IMG/VR virus record: IMGVR_UViG_3300028783_000020
Coordinates: 1 to 27,700 of that record
Strand: one strand, 5' to 3'
DNA: 27,700 bases
Source of the DNA: a virus
In this document: positions 4,813 through 27,576 of the stretch, in pieces
Layout: every line of letters begins with the position of its first letter
How positions within the stretch are numbered: position 1 is the stretch's first letter
The notes under the pieces: generated by a model
Databases searched by the model: none
The model's input: the letters and a program-made list of their open reading frames with translations, nothing else
Told to the model about the DNA's origin: nothing
Position numbers and translations under genes: made by a program

Positions 4813-5703
4813 TTACTCTACCCACAATACGACAATTTGTCCAGAACTTCCCGCACTACCATTGCCACCCTTCCCTCCAGCGGCACCTGATCCGCCACCG
4901 CCTCCTCCTCCACCACCTAGTCCACCAGATCCAGCGGTGGAAGGTAAAGCATTTGCTCCCGCACTACCAGCAACTCCAGAGGTACCACCATTGCCACCAG
5001 CTGCTCCAATATTGGATGGTGCATCTCCAGCGCCGCCACTCGCACCAGCTCCACCACCTCCGCCTCCGTTAACACCACCGGCAGTTCCTCCCAACGCACC
5101 ACTTCCAGCCAAGAAGAAAGGAGAAAGTGCTCCTACTAATGTTGTTGTATCAGTCGCATTGCCACCTGCAGTAGATGCTGCTCCTCCTGTACCACCTTCT
5201 CCACATGCATATAGTAAAGATAGACCAGATGATTGAAATGTTCCAAATGCTTTTGGAGAGGTGCTGTCATAATAAATAGCTCCCACTCCAGCAGCAGTTC
5301 CTCCTCCACCTACAGTAGAACCATCATATGCAGATCCTAAAAATGAAACCAAAGACCCAAAAGAACTACTGCCACCTGGTCCACCTTGACCTCCTGTACC
5401 ACCTTGACCTGTTATTGTTCCAGCAGCGCCTCCGCTGCCTGCAGTTCCTGCTGCCCCGATAGTGATCGTATAAGTAGTTCCGGGAACGACAGTGACGGGA
5501 TACGGTAAAGATATATTAGCGGGTCCAGAAGAACCAGCAGATCCACCACCACCTCCATTAGAACTTCCACCACCACCACCGCCTCCTCCTCCACCACTAC
5601 CTCCGGCAGTGCCACCTCTCCCGATAACAGTTATATTCGTAATGCCAGCAGGGCAAGTCCAGGTTCCAGAAGACGTGAAAATTCGTTTTACATATTTAGA
5701 CAT
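4813..5703 (-). CDS. Glycine-rich adhesin-like protein, copy 3
   Basis: The ATG at 5703 (MSKYVKRIF) is preferred over a TTG two codons upstream because it matches the start of copy 1. This gives 296 aa. The N-terminus has the glycine-rich-domain signature SGTWTCPAGITNITVIGRGG. Long polyglycine runs follow, with interruptions VPGTTYTITIGAAG and, near the end, another Gly run and GQIVVLWVE. Such proteins form polyglycine-helix bundles in phage adhesins (known for T-even gp38 tips) and often decide receptor range. It has its own sigma70-type promoter in the gap upstream. It shares the opening and closing segments with copies 1 and 2 but differs strongly in the middle. Function as a receptor-binding tip is likely but not proven. 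Confidence 0.75.
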   Translation of the reverse strand: MSKYVKRIFTSSGTWTCPAGITNITVIGRGGTAGGSGGGGGGGGGGSSNGGGGGSAGSSGPANISLPYPVTVVPGTTYTITIGAAGTAGSGGAAGTITGQGGTGGQGGPGGSSSFGSLVSFLGSAYDGSTVGGGGTAAGVGAIYYDSTSPKAFGTFQSSGLSLLYACGEGGTGGAASTAGGNATDTTTLVGALSPFFLAGSGALGGTAGGVNGGGGGGAGASGGAGDAPSNIGAAGGNGGTSGVAGSAGANALPSTAGSGGLGGGGGGGGGSGAAGGKGGNGSAGSSGQIVVLWVE

Positions 5704-5735
5704 TGACAACCGCCATTAATGTATATAATGTGTGA

Positions 5736-5764
5736 ATTATGGATAGATTCTGGCCTACAGTCAA
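5736..5764 (-). promoter_or_regulatory. Internal sigma70-type promoter before glycine-rich copy 3
   Basis: On the minus strand TTGACT (5764-5759), a 17-bp spacer and CATAAT (5741-5736) make a good promoter in the 90-bp gap between copies 2 and 3. Its leader contains a 6-residue reading frame (ATG at 5716) whose stop overlaps the start region of copy 3. That could tune translation or be chance. Confidence 0.65.
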
Positions 5765-5793
5765 AGGTAAAACTTGAAAGTAATTGTATTTTT

Positions 5794-6666
5794 TCATTCA
5801 ACCCACTGAACAATAATTTGACCGTTACTTCCAGCTGCTCCATTTGCTCCGATGCCGCCAGTGGATCCAGTCGTTGCAAGTGTACCACCACCTCCGCCAC
5901 CTCCGCCACCTCCACCACCAGAGCCTGATATAGCAGATGAAGCTGCACCACCATTTCCTCCATTAGAACCAGAGGCACCACCATTTCCTCCAGCAGCGCT
6001 GCTGCTTGGGCCAGTCGCATCTCCTGCTGGAGCAGCTGAACTTCCACCACCGCCACCGCCTCCACCTGCACCACCTGAAGCCCCGCCCGCTCCTCCAGCT
6101 CCACTAACAAAAAATGGAGATTGAGAACCATATATAGTGCGACCAGCATTACCCGCCGTTCCTGCACCACCGCCACCGCCAACACCATACGGTTGAAACG
6201 GTAAGATGCCATAAGTTCCAAAACCACCAGCACCAGCAGTAGCACTAAGTCCACCACTTCCTCCGCCTCCACCGCCAGTTCCACCGCGACCTGGTTGGAA
6301 GGATAAAAGGACGTCAAAGGTAGTTGCAGTACCAGATGAACCTGCGCCACCAGCAGTTCCAATTGATCCACCAGCAGTTGCTACACCACCTGCACCACCT
6401 GCACCACCTGCACCACCAGTACCTATGGTTATAGTATAAGAGGTCCCTGGAACGACGATAAGTTCAAATGGAAGAGTTACCATACTTCCGCCTGGTCCAC
6501 CAGAAGATCCACCGCCAGCTCCAGCAGTAGTAGATCCTCCGCCACCTCCTCCGCCACCGCCTCCGCCACCAGAGCCACCTCGCCCCCAGACAATAATATT
6601 CGTAATGCCAGCAGGACAAGTCCAGGTTCCAGATGTAGTGAATAATTCTCTAACCATTTTTGCCAT
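5794..6666 (-). CDS. Glycine-rich adhesin-like protein, copy 2
   Basis: The start is taken as the ATG at 6666 (MAKMVREL), which overlaps the stop of copy 1 as TAATG and has GGTGG upstream. A longer start at 6678 would overlap copy 1 without gain. The 290-aa protein opens with TTSGTWTCPAGITNIIVWGRGG, runs through poly-Gly blocks of up to about 12 residues, has VPGTSYTITIGTGG, and ends GQIIVQWVE. Codons for glycine give a dense CCACCN-type pattern on the plus strand. The shared ends and variable middle fit a receptor-binding cassette made by duplication. It is coupled to copy 1 and followed by a gap with a promoter for copy 3. Confidence 0.75.
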   Translation of the reverse strand: MAKMVRELFTTSGTWTCPAGITNIIVWGRGGSGGGGGGGGGGGGSTTAGAGGGSSGGPGGSMVTLPFELIVVPGTSYTITIGTGGAGGAGGAGGVATAGGSIGTAGGAGSSGTATTFDVLLSFQPGRGGTGGGGGGSGGLSATAGAGGFGTYGILPFQPYGVGGGGGAGTAGNAGRTIYGSQSPFFVSGAGGAGGASGGAGGGGGGGGSSAAPAGDATGPSSSAAGGNGGASGSNGGNGGAASSAISGSGGGGGGGGGGGGTLATTGSTGGIGANGAAGSNGQIIVQWVE

Positions 6667-7529
6667 TATTCCACCCACGTAACAATAATCTGACCGTTAC
6701 TTCCAGTTGCTCCAGTTGCGCCGTTACCGCCAGTTGTTCCAGTAGTTGCTTTTAATCCACCTGCACCACCACCACCTCCACCGGGTCCACCTGATCCAGC
6801 AATTGCTGAAGAAGCTGTTGGAGCATTTCCGCCATTAGAACCAGAGGCACCACCATTTCCTCCAGTAGAGCCGTTTGGACCAGTCGCATCTCCTGCAACT
6901 GGTGCTGAACCACCGCCTCCACCGCCTCCACTCCCAATTCCCGAAGTGGCACTTCCGCCAGCGCCAGCAGTGCCGTAGGTAAAAAATGGATTCCATGCTC
7001 CAACTGGTACGTAACCAGCATAGCCCGCCGAACCACGGCCTCCACCATTGCCACTAGCAAAAGACAAAGATGGAGTTCCTTGAAATTCTCCAGGACCATA
7101 TGTGCCTGCAACTCCATTCGCACCGCCTGTTACTCCTCCAGTACCACCAAAACCAGGAGCACTAGGTTGAAAAGATAAAATACCATCAAAAGATGATGGA
7201 GTTCCTACGATTCCATTACTTCCAGTGCCCCCAGCACCGCCTGCTACACCACCTGCACCACCGGCACCACCGGCTCCACCTTGTCCGATAGTTATTGTGT
7301 AAGCGGTTCCAGGAACAACTGTTAGTTGAAAAGATAGAGAAGTTAGAGATCCACCTGGTCCACCACTTCCACCGCCAGTTCCACCGCTAGTTGTGGAGCC
7401 GCCAGATCCGCCACCTCCGCCACCGCCTCCGCCAGTTCCACCGCGACCCCAAACTACTATGTTTGTAATACCGGCAGGACAAGTCCAGGTTCCAGATGTA
7501 GTGAATAATTGTTTTACATATTTAGACAT
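6666..7529 (-). CDS. Glycine-rich adhesin-like protein, copy 1
   Basis: This 287-aa protein starts 3 nt after the stop of the long fibre gene, so it is in the same transcript. It opens MSKYVKQLFTTSG then TWTCPAGITNIVVWGRGG, has VPGTAYTITIGQGG, and closes GQIIVTWVE. The first ~40 residues are nearly the same as in copy 2; the middle differs. Polyglycine tracts flanked by Thr/Ser/Ala are expected to pack as polyglycine II helices, as in phage adhesin tips. Placement straight after the tail fibre supports a tip or host-range role. Slippage and recombination among the three copies are likely given the repeat-rich DNA. Confidence 0.75.
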   Translation of the reverse strand: MSKYVKQLFTTSGTWTCPAGITNIVVWGRGGTGGGGGGGGGSGGSTTSGGTGGGSGGPGGSLTSLSFQLTVVPGTAYTITIGQGGAGGAGGAGGVAGGAGGTGSNGIVGTPSSFDGILSFQPSAPGFGGTGGVTGGANGVAGTYGPGEFQGTPSLSFASGNGGGRGSAGYAGYVPVGAWNPFFTYGTAGAGGSATSGIGSGGGGGGGSAPVAGDATGPNGSTGGNGGASGSNGGNAPTASSAIAGSGGPGGGGGGAGGLKATTGTTGGNGATGATGSNGQIIVTWVE

Positions 7530-14495: not shown

Positions 14496-15323
14496 TTACA
14501 GATAGTCTATCAAGAATCGCTTCTGATAGTATCCCTTAGCTGCATCCATTTGCTTATCGATCAAAGTTTGTAAGTCCTTCAAACGATTCTGCAAGAACGC
14601 AGGTCCTAGAGTTGATGTGCTCTGCGAAGTTCCATCGATACTGATAGATACTCCGTTGTGCGGAAACAGGATCGGACCCATTACAGACAACATCTTAAAC
14701 GCTGCCATGTTTTCGATCAGAGCCGAGAGTACAGCCGGAAGCTTCCCATCAGGGAAACCACAGCGGTACTTAATTTGAAGCGCACCAGGCCAGTTAGTTA
14801 TACCGCCAGCGTTAAGCGCGCTGAATCCAACACCCGAATAAAGAGTGGTAACGAAACCTGCTATGGTTGTGCCAGTAGCCGGAACGAGCTGGACAGTCTG
14901 TTCTTGCGGTTGCACGAACACGAACTCTAGCGGAACATCGATGAGTGCGTTGTTGCCATATCCATTGTTGAAAGTCAGTTTGTAGCTTAGAACATCAAGA
15001 ATAGGACCGTGTGCCATCTTGACATAGCCGAAGCTCCAAAACATTAAGTGAGCATTATAGTCACAGTTCTCTAAGAACTCTACAGGAGTAATGTAGAGGT
15101 CAAGCGTGTGCTCGATCTCTGAAATTGACTCAGTGATATAGCGCTGCAGAGCGTCGTCAGATACAGCTTGGCCAGTCAAAAATGACTGAAGCGGAATTCC
15201 AAACAGCGGGCCATCGCGCAGAGTCTGAGGAGTAGGAACTGGAAGATAACGCGTTGGCGTTCCTTCCTGCTCAATTCCTAGGTGCGGGAATGGTTGATTA
15301 TAGGGTGTCTTACTTACTGGCAT
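14496..15323 (-). CDS. Head-tail connector-like protein, 275 aa
   Basis: The ATG overlaps the TAA of the upstream gene (TAATG). Near residues 55-80 is an alpha-helical stretch, ALQRYITESISEIEHTLDLYI, of the type found at the N-terminus of gp6/gp15-like head completion adaptors. It is followed by beta-rich sequence (VPLEFVFVQPQEQTVQLVPATG) and a C-terminal helix pair (LPAVLSALIENMAAFKML; LKDLQTLIDKQMDAAKGYY). The GxxSISIDGTSQSTST loop near residue 225 recurs in phage adaptor proteins. It would join head and tail after packaging. Length is on the long side for such adaptors, and the match is by pattern only. Confidence 0.55.
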   Translation of the reverse strand: MPVSKTPYNQPFPHLGIEQEGTPTRYLPVPTPQTLRDGPLFGIPLQSFLTGQAVSDDALQRYITESISEIEHTLDLYITPVEFLENCDYNAHLMFWSFGYVKMAHGPILDVLSYKLTFNNGYGNNALIDVPLEFVFVQPQEQTVQLVPATGTTIAGFVTTLYSGVGFSALNAGGITNWPGALQIKYRCGFPDGKLPAVLSALIENMAAFKMLSVMGPILFPHNGVSISIDGTSQSTSTLGPAFLQNRLKDLQTLIDKQMDAAKGYYQKRFLIDYL

Positions 15324-16846
15324 TAGATTCCTCCGCCTTGTCTGCCGCTTGTAGGCGGTTTGCGAACTTTAATTGCTTGTGCTTGACGTTGTGAACCCAC
15401 ACGTTGCAAGCGGTCAGCCATGTCCGGTGCTTTAGGGTGACCTGAACTCTGGATAACAGACTTCAAATCAACCTTAGGTGCTTGCGGAGACGCTTTACCA
15501 GATGCGAACTTCTTCTGTGCAGCGCGCACTTCAGTTGGAACAGCATCTTGATTCTTCAAAGCAGTCATTTGTAATCCGCGAATTTTGTTGCCCGCGTGAG
15601 TTGCAAACGAAGCCTTTGAAGGGTTGTCGTGATCATAATCATTCATCGCTTGGATAAGACCGTGCATTCCAGCTTCATGAAGCATAGAATGATCGATGTC
15701 TGGATGATTAGCATCCAATCCAAGAGTGTTTAAAGCTTTCTTAGCAGACATACCAATCATTGGATGATAGTGCTCGAAGAACTTCTCAAACTGAGGATTC
15801 TTGCTAGGACCTTCACCAAGGATACGTTTAACGTCGCGCTTAGCGCCTTCGTCATAGTTAGACATCTCATCGATGTTTCCAACCTTCTTGCCTTTATTCT
15901 TATAGTCTTCACCATACTGACGCAAGAAGTCTTGGTTGCCCATAGCAAACGACGTAGCAGGATCCTGCTTAACAGTTGCTTGAGTTCCTTCTTCGCCTTT
16001 AGTTCCGCCAGCGTGTTGCATACCTTCTTCAAGAGAGTAGCCTTCACCACCGTGTCCACCACCAGAGATGATGTTACGGATCTGAGCATCTTTCGCAGCA
16101 GCGTGAATATCTTTAGCGCCTTTCCCCTTTTCATGAGCCTCGTGGTGAGCGTTCAAAGCATTCTTTAAATGCTCAGGGTTCTGTTGCTTCCAGTTGTTTT
16201 CGAACTGATCGTCCATCTCCATCTGTTGGATAGGATCTGCATTCTTGTAGTCAGGTGAGTTAGTATACTCACGGTAAGCAGCGTTACGGTCTCCATGAGA
16301 TGCGTTACGAGCTTCAACAATGTTTCCTTGACGAGCGAGTTGCGGATTCTTAGAAGGATCAGCTTTTAATTGCTGAGCCTCACGAGCGCGTTGTTCCCAT
16401 GGACGAGTGTACTGACGCATCGACATGAGGTCTTCACGCGATGGTTGTTGCCAGCGAGACTTCTTGCCTTCACCTTGTGCCACTGCTTCGCGAGCGGCCG
16501 GAGCAGCTTGCTGTTGTGCAGCGGGAGATTCCATTGGAGATTGTGAATCCTCAGACCCCATATCTTCATCAATAGCAGCACGATGAGCTTCGTCGTCTTC
16601 ATCTGGCTCATATTCAGAGTATTCGTCAGCAGGCTTTGCAGCAGCTGGATCGTTCTCTGCTAACCATTTGTCAGCGTCATCGCTCTCTTCATCAGGATCA
16701 AAGTCACGATCAGTGCCGTCATACTCAGTTTCACCTTCGTATGGGTCTTCATTTGGATCATACTCATCAGCCATCTTTTGGCGAGCTTTTTCAAGCTGCT
16801 CTTTCGCGGCTAACATTTTTTTATAGATCTTCTCTAATTTATCCAT
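15323..16846 (-). CDS. Structural-module protein with sigma factor region 2-like segment
   Basis: This 507-aa protein is coupled on both sides by TAATG. Residues 1-30 are coiled-coil-like. Residues ~25-130 are acidic and disordered. Residues ~130-350 are polar and Gln/Asn/Ala-rich. Residues ~353-432 resemble sigma70 region 2: HYHPMIGMSAKKAL, then DHSMLHEAGMHGLIQAMNDY and FATHAGNKIRG. These match the conserved pattern DLxxEGxxGLxxAxxxFD...FxTYAxxxIRG of the core-binding and -10-recognition helices. The final 75 residues are basic. No region 4 helix-turn-helix is seen. Either it is a divergent phage sigma or RNAP-binding virion protein, or the fold was reused structurally. Neighbours are structural, so it may be packaged. 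Confidence 0.65.
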   Translation of the reverse strand: MDKLEKIYKKMLAAKEQLEKARQKMADEYDPNEDPYEGETEYDGTDRDFDPDEESDDADKWLAENDPAAAKPADEYSEYEPDEDDEAHRAAIDEDMGSEDSQSPMESPAAQQQAAPAAREAVAQGEGKKSRWQQPSREDLMSMRQYTRPWEQRAREAQQLKADPSKNPQLARQGNIVEARNASHGDRNAAYREYTNSPDYKNADPIQQMEMDDQFENNWKQQNPEHLKNALNAHHEAHEKGKGAKDIHAAAKDAQIRNIISGGGHGGEGYSLEEGMQHAGGTKGEEGTQATVKQDPATSFAMGNQDFLRQYGEDYKNKGKKVGNIDEMSNYDEGAKRDVKRILGEGPSKNPQFEKFFEHYHPMIGMSAKKALNTLGLDANHPDIDHSMLHEAGMHGLIQAMNDYDHDNPSKASFATHAGNKIRGLQMTALKNQDAVPTEVRAAQKKFASGKASPQAPKVDLKSVIQSSGHPKAPDMADRLQRVGSQRQAQAIKVRKPPTSGRQGGGI

Positions 16847-17979
16847 TACTTAACTCCCAATTTAGCGCGCAACGCAGGTGGAAGATTTGCAATGTGCTCA
16901 GGCGATAATGCTGGTGCTTGTTGTGGCGCTGGAGCAACTGGTGCAGGTGCGGCTTGTTCGGTAGGTGCAGCTGGAGCTGGAACCTTGTTAGCAAACTTAG
17001 CAGCAAGTTCTGGTGGCAACGAAGCCATATCAACCTTAGGTCCAGCTGCTTTGTGCGGCTGTTCACCAAGTGGAAGACCTTCGAAATGATGTCCAGGTTT
17101 TGTCTTGCCGCGAGCAGCGAATGCTTGCGGGTCTGCGGCATGAAGACGCTTAACGCCTTCAAGCCATTTCTTGTTGTGCTCTGATCCGCCCCAGTTTTGC
17201 ATAGCATCAGCAAACTCCGCCATCTTGTCTGGCGTCAAGTCATCTTGCGATTGCTCTGCAATGTCATGGATAGGATGCTCATCGAATGGGTGCGGAACGA
17301 ATGCATCTTGCTTGCCTACATCTTGTGAGTGTAAGTAAGCTTCTTTAGCATCGATTTTTGCAGGCGATCCGAGTTGTATCTCTTCGAACGGGTATCCACC
17401 TTTGTGTGGAGACTTTGCCGTATCTGCATGTCCTTCGTGAGGAGCCATTTCAAGATAGCGGTAATCCGGAACAGATCGAGGATTCTTATCTCTTGACGCA
17501 GAATTAAGTCGGCGACGGAGACCTTTGGTACCTTCTTTAAGTTTACCAGTCTCAGGGCGACGTTCAGTTGTAGTGTAGTTTGTTTCCCACGGCTCTGTTG
17601 GAGTATAGTCTAATCCCAACTGACCGTTAGAGTGAGTTGCTGCGCGACCTGCCAAGTGCATCATAGGAATGATCTTGTTCAAGTGTTGATCAGCGATCTC
17701 GCGTTGTCCGTTTTTCAGAGCAGCCTTATGATGGTTGATATGGTGCGACAATGCGTCTCGCATCATTTCTACATCTTTGTTCTTCATCTGATTGCCGAAT
17801 GCAGTAACGCCTGCGTTCGCACCACGTCCCATGGACGCTTGCGGACGAGCCATCTTCTCGAGAGATTCGAGAACTTTCTCTGCAATGATCTCGTCTTTCA
17901 TGACGTCGATCAATGTCTGTAATGTAGGGTCGTTAGCCGCTTTTTTAAGAAGTAACTCCCTGAAACCTTTCAGTTCCAT
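16846..17979 (-). CDS. Structural-module protein, 377 aa, unknown
   Basis: The ATG follows AGAGGTGATCT. Residues 1-110 are helical (FRELLLKKAANDPTLQTLIDVMKDEIIAEKVLESLEKM; MRDALSHHINHHKAALKNGQREIADQHL) and look like a small folded domain rich in His. Residues ~120-300 are polar and low in hydrophobics. A Pro/Ala linker (PAPAAPTEQAAPAP) follows. The motif LPPELAAKF near residue 320 is repeated as LPPALRAKLGVK at the very end, so it may be a short docking peptide. No family is recognised. It is first in the coupled pair with the sigma-like protein. A head-internal or injected protein is possible. Confidence 0.6.
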   Translation of the reverse strand: MELKGFRELLLKKAANDPTLQTLIDVMKDEIIAEKVLESLEKMARPQASMGRGANAGVTAFGNQMKNKDVEMMRDALSHHINHHKAALKNGQREIADQHLNKIIPMMHLAGRAATHSNGQLGLDYTPTEPWETNYTTTERRPETGKLKEGTKGLRRRLNSASRDKNPRSVPDYRYLEMAPHEGHADTAKSPHKGGYPFEEIQLGSPAKIDAKEAYLHSQDVGKQDAFVPHPFDEHPIHDIAEQSQDDLTPDKMAEFADAMQNWGGSEHNKKWLEGVKRLHAADPQAFAARGKTKPGHHFEGLPLGEQPHKAAGPKVDMASLPPELAAKFANKVPAPAAPTEQAAPAPVAPAPQQAPALSPEHIANLPPALRAKLGVK

Positions 17980-18455: not shown

Positions 18456-18902
18456 ATGGAAACAGTATATTGCACTATTTGCGAACAGCATAAATCACAA
18501 GAAGACTTCTATAAGGGTAAATTTTCACCTAAACGAAAGGGACGCTGTAAAGAATGTACTAAGCGTATCGCTAGAGAATGGAAAGCGGCTAACCCTGAAA
18601 AGAATAAAGCCACTAATAAAAAGTGGAATGACAATAATTATTCTAAAAAGAGATACCGCGATCTAAAGAGGGAGTATGGAATTACTCCTGAACTTTATGA
18701 GCAAATGTATATAGAACAAGAGGGCAATTGTAAGATCTGTAAAAGAAATAGGACAGAGTTTGCAAAGCGACTAGCTGTCGATCATTGCCACAAGACAGGT
18801 AAAATTAGAGGTCTCTTATGTCAAAACTGCAATACGCTTTTAGGTAACAGTTTTGATAATCCAGAGACCCTAAAGAGAGCTGTCGAGTATCTTATTTCTT
18901 GA
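18456..18902 (+). CDS. Endonuclease VII-like HNH protein, 148 aa
   Basis: The protein has CTICEQHK and GRCKECTK zinc pairs at the N-terminus. A Lys-rich helix and YGITPELYEQMYIEQEGNCKICKR follow, then AVDHCHKTGKIRGLLCQNCN, a signature of the T4 endonuclease VII (His-Me finger) family. Relatives resolve branched DNA or act as mobile endonucleases. Its core matches the gene at 19443-19838 closely (DHCHxTGKIRGLLCxxCN), so the two are relatives inserted on either side of the CYTH gene on opposite strands. It appears to be transcribed leaderless. Its 3' end overlaps the convergent CYTH gene by 11 bp. The short length and mobile-like placement favour a homing endonuclease over a dedicated junction resolvase. 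Confidence 0.8.
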   Translation: METVYCTICEQHKSQEDFYKGKFSPKRKGRCKECTKRIAREWKAANPEKNKATNKKWNDNNYSKKRYRDLKREYGITPELYEQMYIEQEGNCKICKRNRTEFAKRLAVDHCHKTGKIRGLLCQNCNTLLGNSFDNPETLKRAVEYLIS

Positions 18903-19443
18903 ACATCTCGTATAGTGACTTTTTAAGTCGATTCTTAGCTGAGATACCTAGCGGGGCCAGCATATCTTCATACTGTACAACCATGGCCCAGGCTTCTTCC
19001 TCAGAGGCCCAAGCGTAATCTTCCTTAGCCTCTACTTCGATAAACCGCTTCTTTTCATTGAGGTTTTCGTCGTAGACGATGTAATAGACTAGTACAGCCT
19101 TTTCAAGGAACGCAATCTTGCAGGTCTTAAAGATAGAGAAGTTCTTCTTATAGCCTAACAGACTTGCAAAAGCTTCAATAGCCGCACCAGATTTACCGTC
19201 AGTCGGGACGTTGACCTCGACACGGTTGTTATTATTAGCTCCGGTTGTCTTCCGTTTGATCGTAAGCTCACCCATGTGTTCATGGTAACGGTATCTGATG
19301 AATTCGTCCGAGTCGTTGACAAAGTAGTCATCATATGAAGATACCATCATCCATGTAGGGTTAAGAGGCTGCACGAGCTTGATGAAATCAGCCATGTCGA
19401 TATCGTCAGCATAGTATTTTGTTTCAAGCTCTTTAAAGTGCAT
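18892..19443 (-). CDS. CYTH-domain phosphohydrolase
   Basis: This 183-aa protein carries the CYTH signature ExExK exactly near its start (ELETK, residues 5-9). Further tunnel-type strands follow in order: SYDDYFVN (~36-43), FIRYRYHE (~48-55), ELTIKRKTTG (~59-68), NRVEVNV (~73-79) and RFIEVEAKED (~133-142). CYTH (triphosphate tunnel) enzymes hydrolyse triphosphates such as thiamine triphosphate or inorganic triphosphate, or make cAMP, using metal held by the acidic residues. Length is typical. Start TAATG overlaps the upstream nuclease. The substrate cannot be told from the sequence. In a nucleotide operon it might act on a nucleotide or signalling triphosphate. Confidence 0.75.
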   Translation of the reverse strand: MHFKELETKYYADDIDMADFIKLVQPLNPTWMMVSSYDDYFVNDSDEFIRYRYHEHMGELTIKRKTTGANNNNRVEVNVPTDGKSGAAIEAFASLLGYKKNFSIFKTCKIAFLEKAVLVYYIVYDENLNEKKRFIEVEAKEDYAWASEEEAWAMVVQYEDMLAPLGISAKNRLKKSLYEMFKK

Positions 19444-19838
19444 TAGAACTTCCTTAAGTAGGCTGCAAGGTTATCAGCAACTAAAGGGTTATCCTTCATA
19501 TAGCCAACGGCCTTATTGCAGGCGTCACACAAAAGGCCGCGAATCTTACCTGTCCCATGACAGTGATCTACAGCCATATTAATCTTCAATTCAGACTGAT
19601 GCTTGTTGCATCCCAAGCATCTTTCATTTTGCTGGGCCAACATCTGGTTATAAGTTTCCAGAGTGATGCCAAATTTTGCTTTCAGCTGTCCAGCTCTGTA
19701 TCGATCTCTATTGTTGTTGCGCCAAGACACATCATCTATGTAACAGCAAGATCTACACTTAGCGTACAAAACACCTGACTTTCTTGTTTTGAAGTCAGAT
19801 AATTCTTTAGTCTCTTTACAATCCGAACACGTTTTCAT
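19443..19838 (-). CDS. Endonuclease VII-like HNH protein, 131 aa
   Basis: The protein has zinc pairs CSDCKE and KCRSCC near the N-terminus. It then has FGITLETYNQMLAQQNERCLGCN and AVDHCHGTGKIRGLLCDACN, the endonuclease VII core. It ends DNPLVADNLAAYLRKF. Both its ends are TAATG junctions, with the exonuclease upstream and CYTH downstream, so it is perfectly embedded in the operon and coupled. That is unusual for a recent insertion and suggests an established resident. Relation to the plus-strand gene at 18456 is clear from the shared core. It may be a homing endonuclease or a Holliday-junction resolvase needed for DNA packaging. Confidence 0.8.
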   Translation of the reverse strand: MKTCSDCKETKELSDFKTRKSGVLYAKCRSCCYIDDVSWRNNNRDRYRAGQLKAKFGITLETYNQMLAQQNERCLGCNKHQSELKINMAVDHCHGTGKIRGLLCDACNKAVGYMKDNPLVADNLAAYLRKF

Positions 19839-20668
19839 TACGTCTTAGGGGTCGCCATCTTGAGTGATTGGCGCTTTTCCTTACTGAACAGGTTTTCTTT
19901 ATCGCGGTGTTCGGCTCCACAGCTGCGACACTTGTGTTTCTGGAACTTGCCTGCAGAAGTATAGTAGAAGCCGTTCTTAATGAATGTAGTGCTACCGCAT
20001 TTGCACACGTGATCTACCTCATCATGATAAACGTTAAAGTTGATGCTGTTATCCCAAGGGATAAGCTTGTTGTAAAGCTCTTCAAGGGCAAGGACGTCAT
20101 ACTTATTGTAGACTTCCATTTCTTTCCAAGCCTCAAGATTACCAGCTAAACACTGGGCCCACATCTCGTGTCCCGGGAATTTAGTATGCTTAAGCTTCTT
20201 ATAGGTCTTGTTCAATTTGTCGGTCATATACTCAAGCTTGTTCGACGTGAACTTGAAATGCTTAGAGGCAATGACTTTAGTGTCGATATGCTTGTATGAA
20301 GAAGGCGGTTGGAAGCCGTTCAGGATGAAGCGTGCATTCAACTTCTTCTGGTCGAACGATTTACCGTTCTGTGTGATAACGACATCACACTCGTCAAGCA
20401 AATTCCAGATACCTTCTAAAATCTTCTTGTCGTCTTCAATGTTCTTAGCGCCGCGTTGGTCCATATACATGACCTTATTAGGCGCGTCTCCGAGCCATTT
20501 AGCGCTCCAACTCAAGACGTGCCAATCGGACACGATCTGGTTGAGGGATACATTGTTTTCCCATAGGCTCCAAACGTGTGCAATGATAGGAGCGGTCTCG
20601 ATATCAAAGATCAGCACTTTCGGGCCAGTCAACTGTTTCTTTTTACGCGCCTTGGACTTAGCCATCAT
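19838..20668 (-). CDS. DEDDy 3'-5' exonuclease with C-terminal zinc ribbon
   Basis: This 276-aa protein has the three exonuclease motifs of RNase H-like DEDD enzymes: FDIETAP (Asp22, Glu24), ITQNGKSFDQKKL (Asp106) and YNKYD (Tyr187, Asp191). The last makes it the DEDDy type. The C-terminal part has CKC (222-224) and CRSC (247-250), a likely zinc ribbon for nucleic-acid binding. Such enzymes degrade DNA or RNA 3' to 5' using two metal ions. The fold resembles YprB-like RNase H_2 exonucleases, not a polymerase. ATGATG at 20668/20665 gives two possible starts; the latter has the better spacing to GGGGA and overlaps the thymidylate kinase stop. The gene is followed by an endonuclease VII-like gene. 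Confidence 0.8.
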   Translation of the reverse strand: MMAKSKARKKKQLTGPKVLIFDIETAPIIAHVWSLWENNVSLNQIVSDWHVLSWSAKWLGDAPNKVMYMDQRGAKNIEDDKKILEGIWNLLDECDVVITQNGKSFDQKKLNARFILNGFQPPSSYKHIDTKVIASKHFKFTSNKLEYMTDKLNKTYKKLKHTKFPGHEMWAQCLAGNLEAWKEMEVYNKYDVLALEELYNKLIPWDNSINFNVYHDEVDHVCKCGSTTFIKNGFYYTSAGKFQKHKCRSCGAEHRDKENLFSKEKRQSLKMATPKT

Positions 20669-21339
20669 TTCCCCAATCCGAGACCGGCAAGTATCTCGTT
20701 ATGTACATCTTCAATTGACTTGCCGTCAACGTCTATTCTAACAGTGTTAAAGCGCTCGGACAGCTTATCCATGTAAAATGCGCACTTACTAATAAAATCG
20801 TTTCCACGAGATTCCATCGCGTCGCCAGCAGAAAATTCCTGCTTCGCCTGTTTGGCCGCAGCCAAACCTTTGACAGAATCCCCTCGAAGATATATTACAG
20901 TCTCATAGATCTGCTCTGCGGAAGGAGGGAAGATTCCGAGCTGATTATCGGCAGAATCAACGTTCTGATTAGCCATACTGATGAGATCTTCGGTAAGATT
21001 GCCGCATGCAGTACCGTAAGCATATCCACTGAGGATACCTCGGTCTTGAATGATGAAATCATATTCGTTTAGAGAAGGAACGATAAGTCGTTCGAGATGA
21101 ATAGAACGGATCGCTTGAGAGATAAATTCTCTTGCAGGTTTCGTCAGAACAGCATCGTATTGATTGTCCAACATGATCCCTCGCAACGCCATTGTCAACG
21201 GAACGAGAGGTGTGCCCGGTTCTTTCGTTTGCAATACGGTGTATCCTCGCGCGCGAAGGGTATCTACCAACTTCTGCGTTTGAGTTGTTTTTCCTACGCC
21301 TTCAGTGCCTTCGAGACAGATATAACGTGCCTTTTTCAT
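20665..21339 (-). CDS. tmk: Thymidylate kinase
   Basis: The protein phosphorylates dTMP to dTDP with ATP. The chosen start (ATG at 21339, MKKARYICLEGT) puts the P-loop GTEGVGKT at residues 11-18, EPG at 40-42 and IIQDRG at 97-101, all where the family has them. The total length of 224 aa is typical. A longer reading from 21462 would run through the previous gene and add an unrelated tail. TATAAT (21351-21346) is 6 nt before the ATG, so the mRNA may be leaderless. It begins an operon with an exonuclease, nuclease and CYTH genes. With the dCMP deaminase at the window's left end it would feed dTTP supply. Confidence 0.9.
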   Translation of the reverse strand: MKKARYICLEGTEGVGKTTQTQKLVDTLRARGYTVLQTKEPGTPLVPLTMALRGIMLDNQYDAVLTKPAREFISQAIRSIHLERLIVPSLNEYDFIIQDRGILSGYAYGTACGNLTEDLISMANQNVDSADNQLGIFPPSAEQIYETVIYLRGDSVKGLAAAKQAKQEFSAGDAMESRGNDFISKCAFYMDKLSERFNTVRIDVDGKSIEDVHNEILAGLGLGK

Positions 21340-21345
21340 AGAGAC

Positions 21346-21351
21346 ATTATA
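21346..21351 (-). promoter_or_regulatory. -10 box of a leaderless thymidylate kinase promoter
   Basis: A perfect TATAAT on the minus strand ends 6 nt before the ATG at 21339. This places the transcript start at the A of the ATG. No Shine-Dalgarno fits in the 6-nt gap. The -35 is weak. Confidence 0.6.
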
Positions 21352-21374
21352 CAGACGACGATTAGAATCAACCG

Positions 21375-21899
21375 TTATAGCTGCTTCTTGAGTGTCTGGA
21401 ATAGCGTATAGAGTGTTTCTACGCTCTTCTGCATCTTGTTCTGAAGTTGTTCTGCGTGCCATGCTTTCGTAGTTGCCAAATGCTCAGGAGTCATAGCATC
21501 GAAAGTGGCTTTAATAGCTTTAGGGTCTCCGCCGTGATGTCTCGCAAATTCCTCGTGGAATGGAACTTCGGCTGGAGTAGGAACATTTACTACAGGACCA
21601 GCTTGTGCTGCACCAGTAGGTGGATCAATCTTTGGTTCTGCTACGACTGGTGCTGGAGCAACAGGTGCTTCTAGCTCAGGAGTAAAGTCTGCGGCGAGTG
21701 CTTTAAGAGGCGGTTCTTTGGGGTTTGCTTTAGAGTGTGCAAGACCTAGACGGAAGACTTCTTCTGCAGCTTTAACACGCGCAGGCATCTTCGCATTCTT
21801 ATCATTCATCACTTTCGAATGTGTAATGAACGCTTTGAGATCCTTAGGATCTACGGCTTTAGAGAGTATTTCAAGTTCATCGATAGTGATTCCGAACAT
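21375..21899 (-). CDS. Unknown protein with Pro/Ala linker, 174 aa
   Basis: I do not recognise this protein. Residues 1-65 form a compact helical-looking part (ITIDELEILSKAVDPKDL; VKAAEEVFRLGLAHSKA). Residues ~70-115 are a Pro/Ala/Val linker like those of the proteins at 11955-13187 and 16846-17979. The final ~60 residues are helical (EEFARHHGGDPKAIKATFD; HLATTKAWHAEQL). The linker style suggests a virion or assembly partner rather than an enzyme. It starts 9 bp after the stop of an HNH gene. TAGAAT, whose TAG is that stop, lies exactly 6 nt before the ATG, a possible leaderless promoter, and no good ribosome site is present. Confidence 0.6.
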   Translation of the reverse strand: MFGITIDELEILSKAVDPKDLKAFITHSKVMNDKNAKMPARVKAAEEVFRLGLAHSKANPKEPPLKALAADFTPELEAPVAPAPVVAEPKIDPPTGAAQAGPVVNVPTPAEVPFHEEFARHHGGDPKAIKATFDAMTPEHLATTKAWHAEQLQNKMQKSVETLYTLFQTLKKQL

Positions 21900-21908
21900 A
21901 TCTCTATT

Positions 21909-22475
21909 CTACTCTATAGTTTTGTTGGATTTCTTAAGGTTTTCTTCCGCCCACATTGGCTGAAGATTTATATAGCAACAGGCTTCTTTTAATTGGTCTG
22001 GATCCGTTAGATCAAATAGAGAAATCGGTTTAATGTGGTCGATATGCCAACCATTAACAGAATAATTATTCCAAGTCATACCTGGTTCAAACTTTGATTC
22101 TATATAGTCTTTGAGAAATTCAGTTGAGCAGCCGATTAGCTCTTGAGTAGTTTGGGATTTATTCTTTCCGTGAAGAGCCGCATGAATTCTCGCACGCTGG
22201 ATTTTAATTAGTTTGTATTGAATATCAGTATTATAGCGATTATTAAAGTAATTGCTTCGTTTTACCCATTCATTATGAGTAGCATTAACTTGTTTTGAAT
22301 TTTCTTTATTATATTGTTTCACTCTAGAAATAACATGATTTTTATTTTCTTCATAATACTTAGCACATAACTCCTCCATACGACCTGGATTACGCTCTCG
22401 AAAGTTAAGCGTATAGCACTTACCGCAGTAGTTATTTCTTGGTATCTCTTTATCGCATCTCTTACAGTTTTTCAT
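21909..22475 (-). CDS. HNH endonuclease, 188 aa
   Basis: The N-terminus has zinc-type CKRCDKEI and YCGKCY. A middle Lys/Asn-rich DNA-contacting region follows. The C-terminal domain reads LIGCSTEFLKDYIESKF, then WHIDHIKPIS and YINLQPMWAEENLKKSNK. This is the standard layout of phage HNH homing nucleases (IDHIxPIS, NLQPL/MW, N-K). The DH and final N/K residues coordinate metal. TATAAT (22487-22482) lies 6 nt before the ATG with no Shine-Dalgarno, so leaderless expression is likely. It sits between the capsid operon terminator and an unknown gene. Free-standing, it probably spreads by cutting sites in related phages lacking it. Confidence 0.85.
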   Translation of the reverse strand: MKNCKRCDKEIPRNNYCGKCYTLNFRERNPGRMEELCAKYYEENKNHVISRVKQYNKENSKQVNATHNEWVKRSNYFNNRYNTDIQYKLIKIQRARIHAALHGKNKSQTTQELIGCSTEFLKDYIESKFEPGMTWNNYSVNGWHIDHIKPISLFDLTDPDQLKEACCYINLQPMWAEENLKKSNKTIE

Positions 22476-22566: not shown

Positions 22567-24018
22567 TTATTTTCCCACGTTTTCAAAAAGACAATTGAAG
22601 CGCGGAGTGTATACGAACAGAGCGCCGTACATCACGATAGCGAATTCAAGAGCAGTCGTAACGATTGCGAAGTTGATTTTCGACAAAGGTGCAAGTTGTT
22701 TAAACTTCATGCACTCAGCCGACATATCAAGCAAGAACGCTTCGCCAAGACCAGCTTGCAGAGCACCAGCCATCAGGTAAGTTGTGTTACCTTGGTTAGC
22801 GAAGTTACCGCAGAACTTTTCAGTTCCAACAGCGCCGCCTGGAGCAGAGATGTAAGCTTTCAAGTACTTCACGTTAGCAGGCATTCCCGAAACAGTCAGC
22901 GTGATGTTTTGACCTTGAGTCAAAGTAACAGCAGCACCTTGTGTAGGGATAGATTCGCCAGCGTCGTTAACCAAGGTAACCTTGATTTGGTAAGTACCAG
23001 CAACAAGCTGCGATCCAGTACCAGAAGCTGCCGAAGCGATCGCGAGAGCGCCAGGAGCAGGAGCGAGAGCACTTACAGCAAGAGCGCGAGCTCCGCTGCG
23101 AGGACGCAAGAACAAGTTCGGCTTGAAGTCAACCGTTCCTGCAGTAGTCGTCATCTTCGAAACATCATAACCAACTGTTTGGTTAGAAAGGCCCGGAGCT
23201 GAACGGAACTGAGGATAGAACTGCTTCACGAACGCTGACAAAGCAGCTGGTTCGATGTGGAGTTCCGAAGGAGAACCGAAGTTTTCCAACGCGATAACTG
23301 CGAGACGCTCGATATCATCTTGAGCAATAACGTTACCACCGAGGTTTTGAGCGATCGACTGAGCGTCGCCGTAACCTTCGAAGTCACCAGAACGCATCAG
23401 AACGTCTTGGTCACCTTTAAGCAACTGTTGAAGCAAACCACTCATTGCGATGCTGTTCTGTGGAAGATCAGCAGGCGAACCGTTAGCAGCACCAGTCAAG
23501 CGATTGAGGAAGTGGCCATGGCCCCAGTACATCTCACGCTCAACGTTTTTCAGAAGGTGCATAGTACCTTCTTTTGCCTGTTGTGCAACGATGTCGCCAA
23601 CAGTAGTACGGACCAAAGTCATTTGGTGAGAGACTTTACGACGTGTACCGAAGAACACGATCTTTTGTCCGTCACGAACGTACGTCGAATCTTCTTCGAT
23701 CGGCGCTCCACCTTCACCAATGTAAGGTGCTGAGTCTGAACCGTAGCTGATCAAGCGATTGTATTGCTCGAACAGATTGTATGCCTTATCAACGGAGATA
23801 GCAGGCCACATTTTCAGGTTCTTCATGTCGAAGGTTACGCTCTTAAGCGTAGCTTCCAACGATTCAGCCTGAAGGACACCACCATAAGTGAGGTCTGTAG
23901 GTTTACCAGCTCCACCGTATCCGGCGGTAATTGCTTTATTCAGGTTCTCGACGTCCTGTGTAGACACGAGACCTTGATCAAGCCCCTGTAGAATTTGATT
24001 AACTGCATCAGTCATCAT
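22567..24018 (-). CDS. HK97-type major capsid protein with Ig-like insertion
   Basis: This 483-aa protein starts at ATG with AAAGGAG 9 nt upstream. It follows scaffold-like and protease genes, the usual order in head-morphogenesis clusters. Residues ~28-55 hold a Gly-rich motif (KAITAGYGG..., GGVLQAESLE) shared with the protease. The body has RKVSHQMTLVRTTVGD, EREMYWGHG and AVIALENFGSPSELHI, fitting the capsid spine and P/A domains. Residues ~317-420 (GTYQIKVTLVNDAGESIP, then LTVSGMPANVKYLKAYI) look like an Ig-like insertion, probably displayed on the shell surface or at capsomer contacts. The last ~60 residues return to capsid-like hydrophobic strands. A strong terminator follows. Confidence 0.85.
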   Translation of the reverse strand: MMTDAVNQILQGLDQGLVSTQDVENLNKAITAGYGGAGKPTDLTYGGVLQAESLEATLKSVTFDMKNLKMWPAISVDKAYNLFEQYNRLISYGSDSAPYIGEGGAPIEEDSTYVRDGQKIVFFGTRRKVSHQMTLVRTTVGDIVAQQAKEGTMHLLKNVEREMYWGHGHFLNRLTGAANGSPADLPQNSIAMSGLLQQLLKGDQDVLMRSGDFEGYGDAQSIAQNLGGNVIAQDDIERLAVIALENFGSPSELHIEPAALSAFVKQFYPQFRSAPGLSNQTVGYDVSKMTTTAGTVDFKPNLFLRPRSGARALAVSALAPAPGALAIASAASGTGSQLVAGTYQIKVTLVNDAGESIPTQGAAVTLTQGQNITLTVSGMPANVKYLKAYISAPGGAVGTEKFCGNFANQGNTTYLMAGALQAGLGEAFLLDMSAECMKFKQLAPLSKINFAIVTTALEFAIVMYGALFVYTPRFNCLFENVGK

Positions 24019-24036: not shown

Positions 24037-24768
24037 TTACGAAATCTCGTATTTCTTAGCGATTTGTTTAAGGTCCTGTCCCATTTCAGCTTTAGTAATA
24101 TCTAAAGAGTCAACGCGAGTACCCGATTTTTTCAATTCAAATAGCTTGGAAGCTACCTGAGCCTTTGTTAGTGGTTCAGAATCACCTTCATCTGCTGATT
24201 TCAACAGTGGGGTAGTTCTAGCAGTTGCACCGCGAGGAGCAACAGGCTGATCTGCAATCTTATTGACTAAGTCAAGGATCGTAGAAAGTTTAGCTTCGAG
24301 AGGAGCAACGCGCTCTTCAACATAGCTCTTCATAAGAGACTCAGAAGCGTCTAAAGATTTCTTCATATCAGCTAAGTCAGCAAGTTTTCCAATAGCCTTA
24401 CGCTCTTCAGCTTCGTGCTCTTGTCCGCCTTTGGCGTCCTTGTCTTTCTTATCTTTTTTGTCTTCGTCTTTATCGTCTTTTTTGTCATCTTTGTCAGACT
24501 TAGCGGCTTCTTCGTTCTCGCCTTTTGCAGCAAGCTCGTTTTCGCCTTTGTCCATGTCTTTGTCTTTTTTATCTTCGTCTTTGTCTTCGTCTTTAGCGTC
24601 TTCACCTTTAGCGTGAAGGTCACCATTAGAAGGCTTTCCGTCGATACCAGCACCAGGACCTTCGATTTTGATCTCAGCTGGGGCGAAACGCGATTTACGC
24701 AATTCGTCAAGTTCCATCAGAGTCTCGTCGATTAGATCGGTGAGGCTTTTAGTAAGTTTGTTATCCAT
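24037..24768 (-). CDS. Scaffold-like protein, Lys/Asp-rich
   Basis: This 243-aa protein begins with a helix (KLTKSLTDLIDETLMELDELRKS). Residues ~50-115 are almost only Lys, Asp and Glu (KDEDKDEDKK-type runs), so disordered. Residues ~120-170 are a coiled-coil candidate (ERKAIGKLADLADMKKSLDASESLMKSYVEERVAPLEAKL). A C-terminal helical part ends KQIAKKYEIS. It is read just before the major capsid protein and after protease and decoration genes, where scaffold or core proteins lie. Such proteins nucleate the prohead and are removed by the protease. The gene also has AAAGGAG upstream. Assignment is by context and composition. Confidence 0.65.
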   Translation of the reverse strand: MDNKLTKSLTDLIDETLMELDELRKSRFAPAEIKIEGPGAGIDGKPSNGDLHAKGEDAKDEDKDEDKKDKDMDKGENELAAKGENEEAAKSDKDDKKDDKDEDKKDKKDKDAKGGQEHEAEERKAIGKLADLADMKKSLDASESLMKSYVEERVAPLEAKLSTILDLVNKIADQPVAPRGATARTTPLLKSADEGDSEPLTKAQVASKLFELKKSGTRVDSLDITKAEMGQDLKQIAKKYEIS

Positions 24769-25282: not shown

Positions 25283-26953
25283 TTACTTCTTGTTACCGCG
25301 CATGGCACCATAGAGCTTTTCAAAACTCATACCGTGACCACACTCCCTACATTTTACCTGGTGTTTCGAGTAGACTTGCTCTTTTCCACAATTATCGCAA
25401 CTAATATATTTTAGTTTCGACCGTCCTTCGTCCAAGGCTTCGCTTTGGAGTACTCCACCACCTGATAAAGCGCCAGGGCTTCCACCACCGCCATACCCAG
25501 CAGTCATAGCCTTCTTAAGTGGCTTATCTTGCTTAGGTTTCTCGGCTTTCTTAGGCTTCAGTTTGCTATATTCCTTCATAACATTCTGAACATAAGGATG
25601 CTCATCGAGAGCTTGTTCGCCGCCCTCTTTATATTTGTCCCACGAACCCTTCAAACCGTTCAGCCAACTGTAAGTCAACTGTTGGTCGGACTTAGTCTTC
25701 CCTTTGTTTCTCTTATAAAAGGCGACTGCAAAGTCGGCTGCGGCTTGCGGATCGTTATTAAAGGCGTCTGTAAAATCTTTATGATGCTTGCTAACATCTT
25801 TTGCCGAAGCTAAAAGCTTAGGGTACTTTTTAGCAAGTTCTGGATCTTTTTGAAGGATAAATGCAGCAGAGTGCGGCATCATTCCGTAAGGTCCACCAGC
25901 AGTCATTCCCTTGTGAATACCTTCGTTCATTGTCTTATGCTGAAGGTTCTTTCCATTTGAGGATTCAACGTTAGCAATAGCACCAAGCAATGGATACTGC
26001 TTGCTGGTATTAGCTAACACATCGTTTAATTCAACCTTAGGATTAACTTGCTGCTGTACGACAGGTTGTTTTTGAACCTTTGGTTCACTCGAAGAAACCA
26101 TCGATGGAGCTAGAGCCATTGCTGCGCCTATACCGGCAGCAGTCATAGCATTCTTCATCTTCGCTTTTTCTAGTTCTTCTTTTTTTAGAGAAGCCATCTT
26201 AGCGTGAATCTCTTCAAGATTCGACTGTATCTTTTGCTCTAAAGCTTTACGAAGAATAGATTCTTTTGAAGGTATGGTGATCTCGCCTTCAATTCCTAAT
26301 TCCTTCATTAAATCAACTAGTTTGGCGAGATTGTTCTGTACCTTAGTAGCAGATGCATCTCTAGCAATATGACGGAACGATGGAACGTTTGTCTGAGCCA
26401 AGTGCATTACCGATTTGATTAGAAGCATATCGGCAATCTCATCATACTGAGACTTCTTAAGACTCATGGGTTCAATTAATGTGGCATTATTCGCGGGAGT
26501 AAAAGTTAAAGCGCAGGAATGGATTTTTGTTCTAGCTAAAAGAGATGGATCTTTAATGCCGCGCGCTACGACGCCACCCTCAACTGAAGCTTTCAACTGT
26601 AACGGTGTATCTGCTTTATGGATGTTACGTAAGATGGCAGCAGCGGCTTTGGCATTAGGATGGTCGTCATCATCATAAAGATATCCAGCCCCATAGATAT
26701 ATGGTGCTTTGATTTTATCCCAATAATATCTCTGCCTATCGTCTTCGCAATCTTCTTTTTTAAAGATTTTTTTAGCTTTTGTGATACGACCAATAGAATT
26801 AAAAAAGCCCTTACCATGATTATCATTCCAGCGACCACGACCAGCTTCTAATTCGGATATATCAGCACCCTCAACTGACAGCATTTCGCCTTGAGTATCT
26901 CTTAACTCAGAACCAAGAACACCATCAATTTCTAAAGGTTTACGTTTCTTCAT
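25283..26953 (-). CDS. Prohead protease fused to a lytic-transglycosylase-like domain
   Basis: Residues ~1-165 resemble HK97/T4-type head maturation proteases: NDNHGKGF (His46), AGYLYDDDDHPNA, LKASVEGGVVARG (candidate nucleophile Ser123) and IHSCALTFTPANNAT. The order matches the serine protease His...Ser(VEG) layout. Residues ~170-300 are helical with charged linkers. Residues ~315-440 look like a lysozyme/transglycosylase fold: AIANVESSNGKN (Glu330), GGPYGMMP (354-360) and AAADFAVAFYKRN. Residues ~481-508 share KAMTAGYGG...GGVLQSE with the capsid protein. A zinc ribbon (CDNC, CREC) ends the protein. It would process scaffold and capsid proteins during head maturation. Its own ribosome site is weak, and the restored upstream nuclease frame would overlap its start by 14 nt. 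Confidence 0.75.
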   Translation of the reverse strand: MKKRKPLEIDGVLGSELRDTQGEMLSVEGADISELEAGRGRWNDNHGKGFFNSIGRITKAKKIFKKEDCEDDRQRYYWDKIKAPYIYGAGYLYDDDDHPNAKAAAAILRNIHKADTPLQLKASVEGGVVARGIKDPSLLARTKIHSCALTFTPANNATLIEPMSLKKSQYDEIADMLLIKSVMHLAQTNVPSFRHIARDASATKVQNNLAKLVDLMKELGIEGEITIPSKESILRKALEQKIQSNLEEIHAKMASLKKEELEKAKMKNAMTAAGIGAAMALAPSMVSSSEPKVQKQPVVQQQVNPKVELNDVLANTSKQYPLLGAIANVESSNGKNLQHKTMNEGIHKGMTAGGPYGMMPHSAAFILQKDPELAKKYPKLLASAKDVSKHHKDFTDAFNNDPQAAADFAVAFYKRNKGKTKSDQQLTYSWLNGLKGSWDKYKEGGEQALDEHPYVQNVMKEYSKLKPKKAEKPKQDKPLKKAMTAGYGGGGSPGALSGGGVLQSEALDEGRSKLKYISCDNCGKEQVYSKHQVKCRECGHGMSFEKLYGAMRGNKK

Positions 26954-27054: not shown

Positions 27055-27576
27055 TTAATAGATAGATAGATAGATCTTGCCAGATTCTATATGGCGAACC
27101 ATCTTTTTATGAGGTATTTGTTCTAACTTTTTCAATCGATTATTAGGATCACGAAAGTATTCTATATGACCATTAGACAGCTTAAATTTATGTTCAGCTG
27201 AAGAACATATAGTTTTCATGCGAACAGATTGTGCTTCTTTTTCACCCGGTTTTGCCCAGCGTTCACGCATTCTTTGTGGATCGATCTTAGATACTGTTTT
27301 TACAGCATTGTAGCCATAATCGCTTTTATATGACTGAAAATAGTCAACCCAATATTGTTCTCTTATTTCTAACTTAGATAAATCAGCAACATGCTCTAAT
27401 ATTTCATAAGAAAAACAATTATCAAGATTGTATGACTTTTGAAGATGATCTGAGTGATGCTTACGATGACGGAGATGACTTTTGTGAACACGCCAGCGGG
27501 CCTCTATATTTCTAGAAGAGCCTATATAACGCTTATCATTTGCTATATTTCTAATACAGTAAATTCCAATTGACAT
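27055..27576 (-). CDS. GIY-YIG endonuclease, truncated
   Basis: This 173-aa protein opens with the GIY (IGIYCIRN) and YIG (RYIGSS) motifs. An arginine follows in EARWRVHKSHL, and a helix carries the metal-binding Glu (LEIREQYWVDYF). Family members nick or cut DNA at specific sites, and free-standing phage forms are homing endonucleases. The frame ends in a tetranucleotide repeat that cuts off the NUMOD domain, so DNA recognition is probably lost or changed. A TACAAT box (27588-27583), part of an extended -10, sits 6 nt before the ATG with no Shine-Dalgarno. It lies between an upstream gene's end and the prohead protease. Confidence 0.85.
   Translation of the reverse strand: MSIGIYCIRNIANDKRYIGSSRNIEARWRVHKSHLRHRKHHSDHLQKSYNLDNCFSYEILEHVADLSKLEIREQYWVDYFQSYKSDYGYNAVKTVSKIDPQRMRERWAKPGEKEAQSVRMKTICSSAEHKFKLSNGHIEYFRDPNNRLKKLEQIPHKKMVRHIESGKIYLSIY
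27058..27075. repeat. (ATAG)n microsatellite in the GIY-YIG gene
   Basis: Four and a half copies of ATAG (ATCT on the coding strand) lie exactly where the frame breaks. Loss of one unit, or gain of two, restores a full-length protein with its DNA-binding tail. Confidence 0.9.

Follow-up and report, generated by a model that had tools for sequence, protein, structure and literature searches.

A FliA/WhiG-type sigma2 module fused to a head-module protein of SPO1-related phages, possibly packaged in the virion to act on host RNA polymerase

Why should a protein encoded among the head genes of a phage carry a segment that resembles a sigma factor, and what might that segment do? The question was raised by a window of 27,700 nucleotides (the whole stretch of DNA that was analysed, positions 1 to 27,700 of IMG/VR record IMGVR_UViG_3300028783_000020), in which an earlier note, made from the sequence alone, had pointed to a sigma70 region 2-like segment within a 507-amino-acid protein (Table 1). 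Two IMG/VR contigs (L001 and L002) carried this protein at 100% identity, the longest contig being 175 kb. The window corresponds to the head and tail module of an SPO1-related phage: its capsid protein matched SPO1 gp6.1 at 30% identity (E 6e-52), and the capsid protein of Myxococcus phage Mx1 also matched. The coupling of the gene to connector and head genes, already remarked on in the note, was evident from its one-base overlaps with both neighbours (at 15323 and 16846) and from the SPO1-type head module around it. The SPO1 and Mx1 head modules have homologous capsid and neck proteins, but only a small gene stands immediately upstream of the neck gene in those phages, with neither a 507-aa protein nor a sigma domain there.

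Several putative HNH-like homing endonuclease genes and one GIY-YIG-like gene interrupted the head module, and endonuclease-like, thymidylate kinase-like and exonuclease-like genes were situated between the capsid gene and the neck genes. Near the C-terminus of the protease ORF a stretch, LKKAMTAGYGGGGSPGALSGGGVLQSEALDE, resembled the N-terminus of the capsid protein, LNKAITAGYGGAGKPTDLTYGGVLQAESLEA, and a possible zinc ribbon was also seen in the C-terminal part of that ORF. Elsewhere in the window, three glycine-rich paralogues in tandem (FTTSGTWTCPAGITNI...; 4813-7529, minus strand) came after a 1094-aa repetitive tail-fibre-like protein.

Table 1. Coordinates of the features discussed (window positions unless a genome or locus is named).
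Feature	Position	Strand	Basis or remark
507-aa head-module protein with sigma2-like domain	15323..16846	-	ORF list; segment first flagged, residues 353-432, 15551-15790
N-terminal leader MDKLEKIYKKMLAAKEQLEKA	16784..16846	-	Residues 1-21; candidate capsid-targeting propeptide ending LxK↓A
Conserved middle part	15914..16447	-	Residues ~134-311; common to orthologues without sigma domain
FliA/WhiG-type sigma regions 2.1-2.4 and 3.0	15500..15787	-	Residues ~354-449; no region 4
Short conserved C-terminal tail (DRLQRV...IKVRK)	15353..15439	-	Kept with or without sigma domain
Neck/connector-position protein, downstream	14496..15323	-	phrog_772; homologue of SPO1 gp6.3 and A511 ORF3
377-aa upstream neighbour	16846..17979	-	One-base overlap; N-terminal LKKA site
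SPO1-type major capsid protein	22567..24018	-	LxKA site LNKA, residues 26-29, followed by ITAGYGG
Probable scaffold	24037..24768	-	Position and composition; N-terminal LRKS site, residues 23-26
Head maturation protease, presumed processing enzyme	25283..26953	-	phrog_1028 match
Putative homing endonucleases (HNH-like; one GIY-YIG-like)	18456-18902; 19443-19838; 21909-22475; 27055-27576	+; -; -; -	
Exonuclease-like gene	19838-20668		
Thymidylate kinase-like gene	20665-21462		
135-aa HTH protein	G001:83485-83892 (L113 1414-1821)	-	Just right of window end
Second leader-bearing family	L154 65-865; L155 3155-3952; L157 2714-3751; L159 2777-3688	-; +; +; +	
RpoD-like phage sigma, 228-229 aa	L119 1363-2049; L120 1321-2007; L121 1480-2169	+; +; -	
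(A)ACCGATTCGA motif	L169-L177 (G010), e.g. G010 9258, 124117, 131881, 144183		Also in G013

The segment is almost certainly homologous to sigma factors, and its FliA/WhiG (sigma28)-type homology over regions 2 to 3.0 is established. The motif quoted in the note (HEAGMHGLIQAMNDYD ... FATHAGNKIRG) occurs exactly as given in residues 353-432, and the resemblance to sigma70 region 2 seen in it was upheld by profile searches, which matched FliA/WhiG far above chance. A profile search of the kind the note had proposed gave a match of NCBIfam FliA_WhiG to the window segment at E 2.9e-9 and to 16 of 16 relatives, with E-values of 1e-9 to 1e-12 for FliA models across the family; the score fell below the curated NCBIfam cut-off for full-length proteins because only residues 3-87 of the 224 in the model were covered. 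The match was longer than first described, reaching approximately residue 449 and thus region 3.0 (LKNQDAVPTEVRAAQKKF), where it stopped; as the note had said, there was no region 4, which was absent when searched for in the 507-aa protein. When the 97-aa segment was compared with all PDB chains by phmmer, the five top matches were all sigma factors (FliA at E 8.9e-5), and a profile built from the 16 relatives found sigma, WhiG and FliA chains in PDB (the five best with E-values of 2e-10 to 7e-9), the first match running through region 3.0. Sigma70_r2 matched 7/16 relatives, with a best E-value of 9.9e-7. Bacterial FliA/WhiG (sigma28/sigmaD) thus gave the best sequence matches, regions 2.1-2.4 being followed by region 3.0 with its helix motif, as in the bacterial factors; unlike these, the phage domain lacks region 3.1 onward and region 4, which serves the -35 element and the beta flap, and is embedded in a 507-aa head-module protein.

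Could so short a match be a chance resemblance, or a convergent helix pattern without sigma homology? Such a reading would suit the silence of a plain Pfam scan of the 507-aa protein alone, and a first structural search that was negative. A PHROGs scan of the same protein alone gave nothing useful, and a PF04542 scan of both source contigs found no match, which shows that this curated model is too narrow here. Against chance stand the independent profile searches, all of which put FliA/WhiG or sigma factors first, and the intermediate standalone sequences described below, which exceed the curated Sigma70_r2 cut-off (L134, E 1.3e-9); we regard this explanation as extremely improbable. Comparing the whole protein with 50,697 phage records by tblastn returned three records only, at E 1e-4 to 2e-5. 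These records (MT835847, MT837366 and MT839529, filed as 'Bacteriophage sp.') are fragments of a flagellar operon with FliA, flagellar export and chemotaxis genes, and were rejected as phage relatives because they are mis-deposited bacterial pieces.

The note had also proposed a fold prediction, and this gave a divided answer. A longer AF2 model that included the flanks yielded only noise in Foldseek, with no sigma match. A trimmed model of the domain, made with standalone relatives included, had a pLDDT of 81.5 and a pTM of 0.68, with its helices ordered as in region 2, and its eight top Foldseek matches were sigma chains; the best three reached TM 0.55-0.59 at probability 1.00, with weak E-values of 0.08 to approximately 1. 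The three-helix arrangement of region 2 is therefore present in the trimmed model, at these TM-scores and weak E-values. The domain was under strong purifying selection (pN 0.08-0.18 against pS of 0.65 or more), far tighter than the linker. The description of the rest of the protein as disordered held only in part, since the middle part (residues ~134-311) is conserved and under purifying selection.

The origin of the arrangement was followed in eighty capsid-protein loci, among which three states were distinguished. The orthologue carried the sigma domain at approximately 20 loci, duplicate contigs among them; at many others it lacked the domain but kept the middle part and the C-terminal tail. 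At L086 the sigma domain was encoded separately, in an ORF preceded by a ribosome-binding site of its own, and L085 held a divergent version. In a capsid-protein tree built by a quick method, 16 fused loci formed one clade (support 99) nested among domain-less loci, so that one change suffices to explain the distribution. Searching 16 phage records with FliA_WhiG showed nine with a fused copy only and five others with only standalone sigma2-like proteins of approximately 123-164 aa, the clearest being the L134 protein. The standalone gene adjoined a 115-aa gene and, in several cases, a ClpP-like gene; in six fused genomes checked, the ClpP-like-gene locus was present and held no sigma2. Within these records, sigma2 at one location thus excludes sigma2 at the other, although the pattern may go back to a single evolutionary event and some records may be incomplete. 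This comparison supports a single fusion event, in which the module would have been moved or copied, either out of a standalone sigma2-only phage protein or in parallel with such a protein. The match at L188 was rejected: it falls by chance within a hydrolase-like reading frame. Three genomes of the comparison (G010, G012 and G013) also encoded an RpoD-like sigma with regions 1.2, 2 and 3, which ended right at the start of region 4, at its first residues (LSPREEKVLRMGFG), without region 4.2. Two Bacteroidota MAG bins held related phage contigs, too weak a link to name a host.

A packaged protein is suggested by the N-terminus. The 507-aa protein starts with a leader of approximately 20 residues that ends in an LxK↓A site (the arrow marks the presumed cut), and LxK[AS]-type sites were also found in the capsid protein, the scaffold and the 377-aa neighbour (Table 1); the capsid proteins of SPO1 and Mx1 likewise have a short stretch at the start, which ends in LNKA in SPO1 and in LRKA in Mx1. 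Counted over residues 9-110 of unique relatives, with shuffled sequences as the expectation, L.K[AS] occurred in 26/30 orthologues of the 507-aa protein (2.6 expected), in 68 of 73 capsid proteins, 52 of 65 scaffolds and 21 of 40 members of the 377-aa family, and was nearly or wholly missing from connectors (0/31), the 132-aa family (0/61), the 116-aa family (1/32) and the HTH proteins (1/54). A leader profile run over 133,088 positions in three genomes ranked one unrelated family next after the two training proteins; in each of the three, the match fell close to the N-terminus of that family (e.g. G001:11064 MDKIDALIKKLQEAKEELSKA). The leader is thus common to otherwise unrelated proteins and ends in a presumed protease motif. 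Nearly the same leader as on the 507-aa protein was observed on a second, different family adjoining the ClpP-like gene, a candidate packaged or injected protein in its own right. In T4, the internal proteins share capsid-targeting sequences that are cut after L/I-x-E (PMC9026906). By analogy, the leader here would be capsid-targeting and cut by the head protease, the cut site being read from the motif; the literature searched yielded nothing on cleavage of SPO1-type capsid proteins. We judge that the 507-aa protein is probably packaged in the head, and in this the note's suggestion of a virion-packaged protein gains support. Because the standalone sigma2 proteins lack the leader, packaging is not general to this sigma2 family.

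What the domain would do once packaged is less clear, as the residues expected to contact RNA polymerase and the -10 element have changed. The equivalent of sigma70 D403, the clamp-contact Asp, was acidic in none of 17 fused domains (Met in 11), and that of Y430, the region 2.3/2.4 aromatic of the -10 region, was His in 16 of the 17. An acidic residue at the D403 site was kept in FliA, in the split L086 domain and in 4/4 standalone copies, and the Y430 site held Tyr or Phe in the same set, mostly Tyr in the standalone proteins. Whether the acidic contact has really gone is not certain: indels in the loop before the helix could shift the D403-site register by a few residues, and three residues before the aligned position there is an invariant Asp. 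A k-mer scan found no -35/-10 class or promoter motif specific to the fused genomes, only ordinary GGTATAAT-like boxes. The part of the note that proposed an RNA polymerase-binding or promoter-directing role is weakened by these results, and whether the domain contacts RNA polymerase seems to us evenly balanced.

With these contact residues lost and no dedicated promoter motif in the fused genomes, reuse of the helix bundle stays a serious rival. The sigma2 fold would then be exapted to a purely structural or DNA-contacting task in the head, touching DNA, scaffold or portal and no RNA polymerase; the new invariant or near-invariant residues of the fused clade at the H405, E406 and H410 equivalents would fit such a task, as would the position of the gene in the head operon and the domain-less orthologues, which presumably still perform the head job. 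A bundle freed from sigma function accords less well with a domain that has kept its entire length from region 2 to 3.0 and, in most copies, the Ile-Arg-Gly (IRG) of region 2.4, with the E-values obtained from FliA models, or with the replacement by the fused domain of a standalone sigma2-like gene within the same phage group. On balance we think exaptation rather unlikely.

A single-box motif, ACCGATTCGA, was found in G010 and G013, both of which carry a standalone sigma2, its CCGATTCG core being present 15 times in the first and 8 times in the second; fused genomes, with 0-3 copies of the core, showed no enrichment, and neither did two further genomes with a standalone sigma2 (1-2). In G010 all 15 copies of (A)ACCGATTCGA were plus-strand; most preceded a start codon by 14-85 nt, and none had a -35 partner. 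The CCGAT within the motif is similar to the sigma28/sigmaD -10 core.

Alternatively, the fusion may not be packaged at all and may act inside the cell as a gp55-like late transcription factor whose gene happens to lie in the head operon, perhaps with a sigma4-like HTH protein. T4 gp55 is a sigma2-only phage protein that can direct transcription with a flap-binding partner, gp33, the two working as a split sigma (PMC2988020), and its sigma similarity is confined to domain 2, as it is here apart from part of region 3.0; the window domain differs in matching FliA/WhiG, in extending into region 3.0, in being fused to a head protein and in having a weak partner candidate. That candidate, an HTH protein of 135 aa, has conserved cysteines and carries its HTH at the C-terminus; its gene lies close upstream of the protease gene in 66 related loci. 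The standalone sigma2 relatives without a leader also agree with an intracellular role. However, the HTH protein matched Sigma70_r4 weakly, resembled many HTH proteins in PDB and occurred whether or not sigma2 was fused; we therefore make no split-sigma claim and dropped this protein as a sigma4-like partner. The shared leader with its LxK↓A site on the fused protein, and the failure to find a late motif, also speak against an intracellular factor, which we consider unlikely.

We tentatively favour, as something short of a probable reading, a head-packaged internal protein whose FliA-derived sigma2 module is delivered to act on host RNA polymerase; here we infer packaging, cleavage, ejection and the action on the polymerase. 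The leader would target the 507-aa protein into the prohead, where the prohead protease would cut it at LxK↓A. The C-terminal half bears the FliA/WhiG-derived sigma2-sigma3.0 module without sigma4, as its homology demonstrates, and this module would be ejected with the DNA and then most likely dock on host RNA polymerase in the manner of T4 gp55, which uses its sigma2 domain for this. Once docked, it would be a competitor of host sigma or assist in bringing the polymerase to the incoming genome, a role that would differ from that of a complete promoter-specific sigma. In its strongest form, a cleaved sigma2-sigma3.0 module injected with the DNA that would seize host RNA polymerase at the start of infection, the proposal is doubtful.

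T4 internal proteins and Alt, which modifies host RNA polymerase, also have a short N-terminal leader that is common to otherwise different proteins and ends in a short protease motif; in the window phage the cleavage residue would differ (L-x-K↓A, as deduced here), and the cargo is a sigma fragment and not an enzyme. Phage N4 and phiKZ-like phages inject whole RNA polymerases. The N4 enzyme is carried in the virion (PMC4496689). The idea of transcription machinery in the virion is the same, but in these phages it is a catalytic polymerase and here only a sigma2-like module. A virion-borne sigma fragment was not described in the literature searched, most subscription journals and preprints lying outside its scope.

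If the favoured reading is true, the phage would deliver with its virion a partial sigma factor that evolved through a single event in which a phage sigma2 gene became fused to a capsid-targeted head protein, and host transcription would be redirected before any phage gene is expressed. The group also offers a natural experiment, in which the same sigma2 module is free in sister phages and a head-protein domain in the fused clade. The shared leader with LxK↓A would, in addition, give a simple rule to predict injected proteins across the large group of uncultured SPO1-like phages.
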